Source: Polyangium spumosum
Lineage (GTDB): Bacteria > Myxococcota_A > Polyangia > Polyangiales > Polyangiaceae
NCBI RefSeq assembly: GCF_009649845.1
Contig: NZ_WJIE01000030.1
Span: forward strand, 1-46,241
Length of the DNA: 46,241 nt
Reading direction: 5' to 3'
In this document: in pieces, positions 1,886 through 2,172 of the stretch
Layout of the letters: each line of letters begins with the position of its first letter
Position numbering within the stretch: the stretch's first letter is position 1
Position numbers and translations under genes: made by a program
The notes under the pieces: model-generated
Seen by the model: the letters and a program-made list of their open reading frames with translations, nothing else
Database searches by the model: none
Told to the model about the DNA's origin: nothing

Positions 1886-2113
1886 CTAACGCGCGAGCTT
1901 CGACATGGCGTCGAGCACCTCCTGGATCTCCGGAAACCGGCCCTCCGCCTGCTTCGAGAAGATCAGCTTTTGATCGACGAGCACGTCGAACTGACTGGGC
2001 TTGCCGATCTCGAGCTTGGCGTCGACGTCGAACGCTTCCTTGATGGCGGCCGCGAAACTCACGGCCCGGGGCTTGTAGTTTCAGACGTGGCAGTACTTGA
2101 TCACGACGTTCAT
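1886..2113 (-). CDS. SelW-like (Rdx family) selenoprotein with in-frame UGA
   Basis: Reading through one UGA gives 75 residues: MNVVIKYCHV, selenocysteine (U) at 11, NYKPRAVSF and onward to AMSKLAR, then TAG. The redox motif CHVU followed by NYK matches the CxxU/CxxC site of the SelW/SelT/SelH thioredoxin-like (Rdx) family, where the UGA falls exactly at the catalytic Sec. The rest has the family layout: beta1, CxxU, helix (AAAIKEAF), beta (AKLEIG), then 'FDVLVDQKLIFSK' and a C-terminal helix. Length fits SelW-type proteins (about 75-100 residues). A strong Shine-Dalgarno, GAGGAGG, lies 5 nt before the ATG. Flanks: 59 bp after the upstream membrane-protein gene and 60 bp before the lipoprotein gene. 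Standard gene calling misses it because of the UGA. Role inferred: thiol redox protein; the substrate is unknown. Sec machinery genes are not in this window. Confidence 0.85.
2048..2066 (-). promoter_or_regulatory. Candidate bacterial SECIS hairpin
   Basis: In the mRNA of the SelW-like gene a 7-bp stem, GGCCGUG / CGCGGCC (one U-G wobble), closes a 5-nt loop AGUUU. The stem starts 15 nt and the loop 22 nt after the UGA (2083 to 2081), with G as second loop base. Known bacterial SECIS elements lie just 3' of the UGA inside the coding region, with a small apical loop carrying a G near its start at roughly this distance. The fit supports SelB-dependent recoding; it has not been folded by software. 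Confidence 0.65.
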
Positions 2114-2172
2114 GGGCGCCTCCTCGGGAATCCATGGATGCGGGCGCGCGCGGGCGCAAGGGGCGATGAACG

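Follow-up and report, generated by a model that had tools for sequence, protein, structure and literature searches.

The question raised by this locus was whether a short interval in the window, i.e., the whole 46,241-nucleotide stretch of Polyangium DNA that was analysed, encodes a small protein of the SelW type whose frame is interrupted by a UGA read as selenocysteine (Sec). An earlier note had placed such a gene at 1886–2113 with no strand given; the coordinates were shown to hold, and the gene was found to lie on the minus strand (Table 1), the plus-strand translation of the interval being without any Rdx protein. Read from window position 2113 to 1886, the frame comprises an ATG and 9 further codons, the TGA, 64 codons and a TAG (228 bases), and its 75-residue product begins MNVVIKYCHVUNYKPRAVSF, with UGA given as U. 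A complete Rdx-family protein read through one UGA, the UGA at the Sec position of C-H-V-U followed by NYK, the 64 coding codons behind it and a GAGGAGG ribosome-binding site ahead of the ATG had all been described in the earlier note, and all were recovered in the minus-strand frame.

Table 1. Features of the SelW-like locus (window coordinates) and TGA-containing AhpC-TSA-profile genes elsewhere in the genome (genome:contig:positions)
Feature	Position	Strand	Basis
SelW-like (Rdx family) selenoprotein gene	1886..2113	-	translation, PF10262, TIGR02174; 75 codons + TAG
UGA at codon 11, in frame; predicted Sec residue of C-H-V-U	2081..2083	-	sequence, relatives
Ribosome-binding site GAGGAGG	2119..2125	-	direct sequence reading; five bases 5′ of ATG
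SECIS-like hairpin within the coding sequence	2048..2066	-	8 pairs, loop GUU; pairing, covariation
AhpC-TSA-profile gene with in-frame TGA (L100)	G000:C5:326600-327700		
AhpC-TSA-profile gene with in-frame TGA (L101)	G000:C14:141400-142600		
AhpC-TSA-profile gene with in-frame TGA (L102)	G000:C39:15500-16700		

The openness of the frame is by itself weak evidence, 64 codons without a stop having a chance of about 0.12 as estimated from base composition. With UGA read as Cys, the product matched Pfam PF10262 (Rdx) at 5.4e-17 (62.2 bits; cut-off 22.6) and TIGR02174, the SelT/SelW/SelH model, at 7.7e-13 (48.5 bits; cut-off 34.2), so the proposed search against Rdx/SelW proteins gave matches above both cut-offs. 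It scored 75.4 bits with NF041051, the Campylobacter-type SelTWH model, which is below the cut-off of 88. A six-frame search of the 10.76 Mb genome with stops read through (E ≤ 0.001) returned this gene as the sole Rdx match (1.8e-13, one TGA). Judged from these profile scores, the Rdx match is not due to chance. A predicted model (pLDDT 87.9; four closely related sequences, C in place of U) showed the order strand, helix, three strands, helix, with the CxxU motif (C8-H-V-U11) between strand 3–7 and helix 14–28. The nearest PDB entries were bacterial proteins related or similar to SelW, namely 2fa8, 2obk, 2ojl, 2p0g, 3dex and 2oka (TM 0.85–0.90 by query length), followed by MIEN1 and mouse SelW, and the predicted fold is the thioredoxin-like one of SelW. 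The solved SelW-related structures 2fa8, 2obk, 2p0g, 2oka and 3dex share this fold with the model at 21–28% identity; in the two alignments compared, 2ljk and 2fa8 have Cys at the place of the UGA.

The genes needed for Sec decoding, whose absence from the genome was to have spoken against the proposal, were each found. A tRNA-Sec scored 69.7 bits (cut-off 47) and was called tRNA-SeC with anticodon tca by ARAGORN. SelA matched with 490 bits, SelB with 287.9 bits (315.2 including a second piece; cut-off 242) and SelD with 390 bits. On contig C2, the matches for selB and tRNA-Sec lie next to each other in divergent orientation, 58 bases apart. The stretch GCAAK at the catalytic site of SelD, assigned after E. 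coli SelD, makes this enzyme the Cys type and not the Sec type.

The UGA and the part downstream of it, the loss of which in close relatives would likewise have counted against the proposal, were found to be kept in all five other searched genomes of the genus. When 84,980 species genomes were scanned, the close relatives obtained were four Polyangium contigs with 86–88% identity over residues 1–72 or 1–74, and the UGA was present in 4/4. Five comparisons with the window copy within the genus gave 4–6 synonymous and 8–10 non-synonymous changes in the codons past the UGA, substitutions too few to demonstrate strong purifying selection on their own. An Rdx match was present in 66 of the 183 searched genomes of the order: 43 genomes carried the UGA type (45 matches, two each in G050 and G051), every one scored with one TGA and the remaining domain intact, and 23 carried no-stop matches exclusively. 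A tRNA-Sec was detected in 57/183 genomes, always over the cut-off, this count having been made at E ≤ 1e-8 with stricter filters by which weak matches were possibly lost. It was found in 37/43 genomes with a UGA-type Rdx vs. 20/140 others (Fisher p = 4e-18, a value that treats genomes as independent and is uncorrected for kinship), and in 2 of the 23 genomes whose Rdx matches are all no-stop. SelB was over the cut-off in three of the six UGA-Rdx genomes without a tRNA-Sec match; for the other three (G048, G082 and G175, 86–93% complete) neither tRNA-Sec nor SelB exceeded its cut-off.

In a tree of 66 short Rdx rows, which has few columns and leaves 29/63 inner branches open, the 21 CxxC rows formed one side of a 100/100 branch; all 43 UGA rows, together with the odd Cys rows of G012 and G109, fell on the opposite side. 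These two genomes hold a tRNA-Sec and no UGA-type Rdx, and their no-stop Rdx has Cys at the Sec place and no Cys at the place of the CxxC partner. The G109 sequence clusters with a UGA-type paralogue pair (99/97), which suggests that Sec may have been changed to Cys. The pair consists of second, longer UGA-type paralogues in G051 (L088) and G050 (L089) reading CRAUGY with an insert, and G109, still with tRNA-Sec, carries a Cys version (SxxC) of this longer type. In a phylum-wide draw, 195/377 genomes had an Rdx match, and among the matches listed, those scoring less than about 71 bits mostly contain a single TGA. In-frame TAG codons were observed in the Rdx matches G470:C28:23204-23428 and G450:C697:9895-10104, the latter also with TGA; they may reflect decay, a sequencing error or another cause. 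G102 has two tRNA-Sec matches (C448:7732-7825 and C287:24684-24769), and G146, G147, G062 and G176 are among the genomes with weaker, somewhat shorter ones (50–58 bits), possibly unusual forms of tRNA-Sec.

Bacterial SECIS elements are hairpins located just past the UGA whose small apical loop has a G near its start. The same consensus is given in the accessible part of PMC1088965. The hairpin that the earlier note had placed 15 nt past the UGA was confirmed, with the helix beginning at the 15th base after it (bases 18–25 with 29–36, numbered from the T of TGA). Fifty UGA rows (45 genome matches, the four named contigs and the window) gave 43 distinct stretches (−30 to +75), all of which align gap-free across 45 bases from the UGA. 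In 43/43 the 3-nt loop opens with G (GUC 30, GUU 6, GGU 3, GGC 2, GUG 1, GGA 1). It may be argued that the hairpin is a mere by-product, without a role, of the peptide Ala-Ala-x-Leu-Ala-Ala written in GC-rich codons. Since the typical peptide AAxLAA favours a palindrome, synonymous codons were redrawn as a control, and the peptide does explain much of the pairing, 300 redraws still averaging 5.63 ± 0.14 of 8 pairs. The observed mean of 7.65/8, however, lies beyond all of them (maximum 6.05). The outermost third-position pair, 18/36, is retained in only 74% of the copies, whereas the third-position partners 21/33 and 24/30 form a standard pair in 43/43 although they vary (CG/GC/UA/UG/GU and GC/CG, respectively). 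Across 35 distinct rows over the 45 columns, 94.6% of cells were paired vs. 30–55% for slid helices, and 24 cells were changed on both sides vs. 6.6 ± 2.1 in shuffles (0/500 as high); counted by pairs, such changes stood out less (4 pairs vs. 2.9; 20/500 shuffles as high). Pair 22/32 is broken in 3/35 rows, and in L083 and L085 residue-altering changes on both sides leave it paired (U-G), which also speaks against a by-product of the peptide. The 21 Cys-type Rdx genes used as controls, out of 25 no-stop matches (G165, G166, G012 and G109 left out), showed no such helix in the identical columns (3.14 pairs vs. 3.27 in 50 redraws). Taken singly, the hairpin of the window copy stands out only moderately: 2.3% (pairs) and 2.9% (energy) of synonymous redraws reach or exceed it. 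A search of Rfam over the stretch gave no relevant match, only one weak snoRNA-family match on the opposite strand outside the gene. A hairpin without a role is on this evidence very unlikely, and the covariation is strong enough to define an insertion element in the order.

The same evidence bears on two other readings of the UGA. The gene could be a decayed Cys-type Rdx in which TGC or TGT has become TGA and which is now a pseudogene: TGA is one base away from the Cys codons, and the 21 no-stop CxxC genes have Cys exactly at the UGA place. Decay of this kind would hardly leave a single TGA and an otherwise intact domain in all 43 UGA-type genomes, a 100/100 branch between them and the CxxC type, and a hairpin conserved through compensatory changes, so that its probability is close to nil. 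If a suppressor or a reassigned code had UGA decoded as Trp or Cys, the frame would also stay open, as it does under any sense reading. UGA is not used as a general sense codon in this genome, as TGA was found in 0/13 SelB-profile, 0/4 molybdopterin-oxidoreductase and 3/19 AhpC-TSA matches, and the UGA occupies the CxxU place with a conserved hairpin behind it in a genome that has tRNA-Sec with anticodon tca, SelA, SelB and SelD; this reading is extremely unlikely.

The locus is a real small selenoprotein gene, readable only with one stop codon decoded as selenocysteine. Frame, family, machinery genes, conserved hairpin and distribution are all read from the sequences compared, and SelB-directed insertion of Sec into a small thioredoxin-fold redox protein is, with a probability not far from certainty, their best explanation. 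Ribosomes would start at the ATG behind GAGGAGG, SelB with Sec-tRNA-Sec would bind the hairpin in the same mRNA, and at codon 11 selenocysteine would be inserted instead of termination. The product would be a thioredoxin-fold protein of 75 residues whose CHVU active site lies close to the N terminus. We infer from this that the UGA is actually decoded, that the protein contains selenium, and that it has redox activity and a partner; CxxU would most likely be a thiol/selenol redox centre working with a small-molecule or protein thiol. In the accessible part of PMC1088965, the function of SelW-like proteins is described as unclear, with CxxU suggesting a redox role and the protein found to interact with glutathione.

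The gene belongs to a bacterial family that is, from the accessible parts of the literature, already known as common. The view of the earlier note that bacterial examples are few was not borne out, as in marine surveys SelW-like proteins rank first among prokaryotic selenoprotein families, according to the accessible text of PMC2398784 and PMC9402790 (also PMC1088965): 427 were counted in the GOS samples, at the top of the table (PMC2398784), and they are named first with 11.3% of selenoprotein genes in PMC9402790. The bacterial SelW-like selenoproteins described in the accessible parts of PMC1088965, PMC1794560 and PMC2398784 resemble the window gene in CxxU, in-frame UGA and Sec-decoding hosts, and also in a SECIS hairpin of the bacterial kind, the small apical loop of which contains a G. 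The hosts listed there are Geobacter sulfurreducens, Desulfotalea psychrophila, some clostridia and Symbiobacterium, with no member of the order named in the accessible parts of these three papers, whereas the gene described here occurs in Polyangium and is widespread in the order. The Epsilonproteobacterial SelW (PMC4607533, as far as accessible; NCBIfam NF041051) is of the same family in a different phylum. No report of a SelW-like selenoprotein from myxobacteria or Polyangium was found in titles and abstract openings of the open-access literature. With this gene, the range of a widespread redox selenoprotein family comes to include Polyangium along with many genomes of its order. A coding gene of this kind would probably be lost or shortened in standard gene calling; for Epsilonproteobacteria, the accessible part of PMC4607533 singles out the SelW genes as having escaped annotation altogether.

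Further TGA-containing genes were found in the same genome. Three of its 19 matches to PF00578 (AhpC-TSA) contain one TGA (Table 1), which by eye lies at the redox place (FTSGUT, HWULYC and HPTUSAC). The FTSGUT protein is peroxiredoxin-like and probably a Sec peroxiredoxin; the other two, of the UxxC type and both with a lipoprotein-like start, are probably Sec-containing lipoproteins of the thioredoxin fold, as predicted from sequence. Their downstream sequences were folded singly. None of the four matches to PF00384 (molybdopterin oxidoreductase) contains a stop, one partial match presumably being NuoG, and neither does the single match to PF02627. As Sec families were searched incompletely, this selenoproteome is a lower bound. 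FdhA or SelD was part of every bacterial selenoproteome known in 2006, as stated in the accessible part of PMC1794560; by the incomplete family search made here, the Polyangium genome looks like an exception to this rule. The genes found point to a small selenoproteome of the oxidative-stress type in these soil bacteria. It is conceivable, though rather improbable, that the order keeps the Sec machinery for a purely redox/peroxide-repair selenoproteome, made up of the SelW-like protein, the Sec peroxiredoxin and the Sec thioredoxin-fold lipoproteins and without Sec formate dehydrogenase or Sec SelD, and that SelW serves the envelope, a role hinted at by the OmpA-family gene that precedes it in nine relatives.

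In these nine loci (L056, L062, L063, L070, L079, L083, L085, L086 and L087), one conserved gene was observed directly upstream of the UGA-type Rdx gene on the same strand, ending shortly 5′ of it. The encoded proteins are 55–95% identical to the L087 copy, the one scanned, which was shown to be an OmpA-family protein (PF00691, 1.2e-15) with a lipoprotein-like start. The arrangement, which is absent in Polyangium, suggests an operon and a link to the envelope in the nine loci. Around the window gene, the two nearest ORFs had no Pfam match (E ≤ 0.01) and a further ORF was acyltransferase-like. By blastp at 1e-8 among the compared loci, the flanking ORFs recur inside the genus and the acyltransferase-like one is found in L066 too; matches farther afield were obtained for a single ORF, which overlaps selW in antisense. 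The context of the window gene was thus not informative. At the edge of the window, positions 1–196 are occupied by a GC-rich tandem repeat with a 43-bp unit, present in 4.6 copies with 97% matches.
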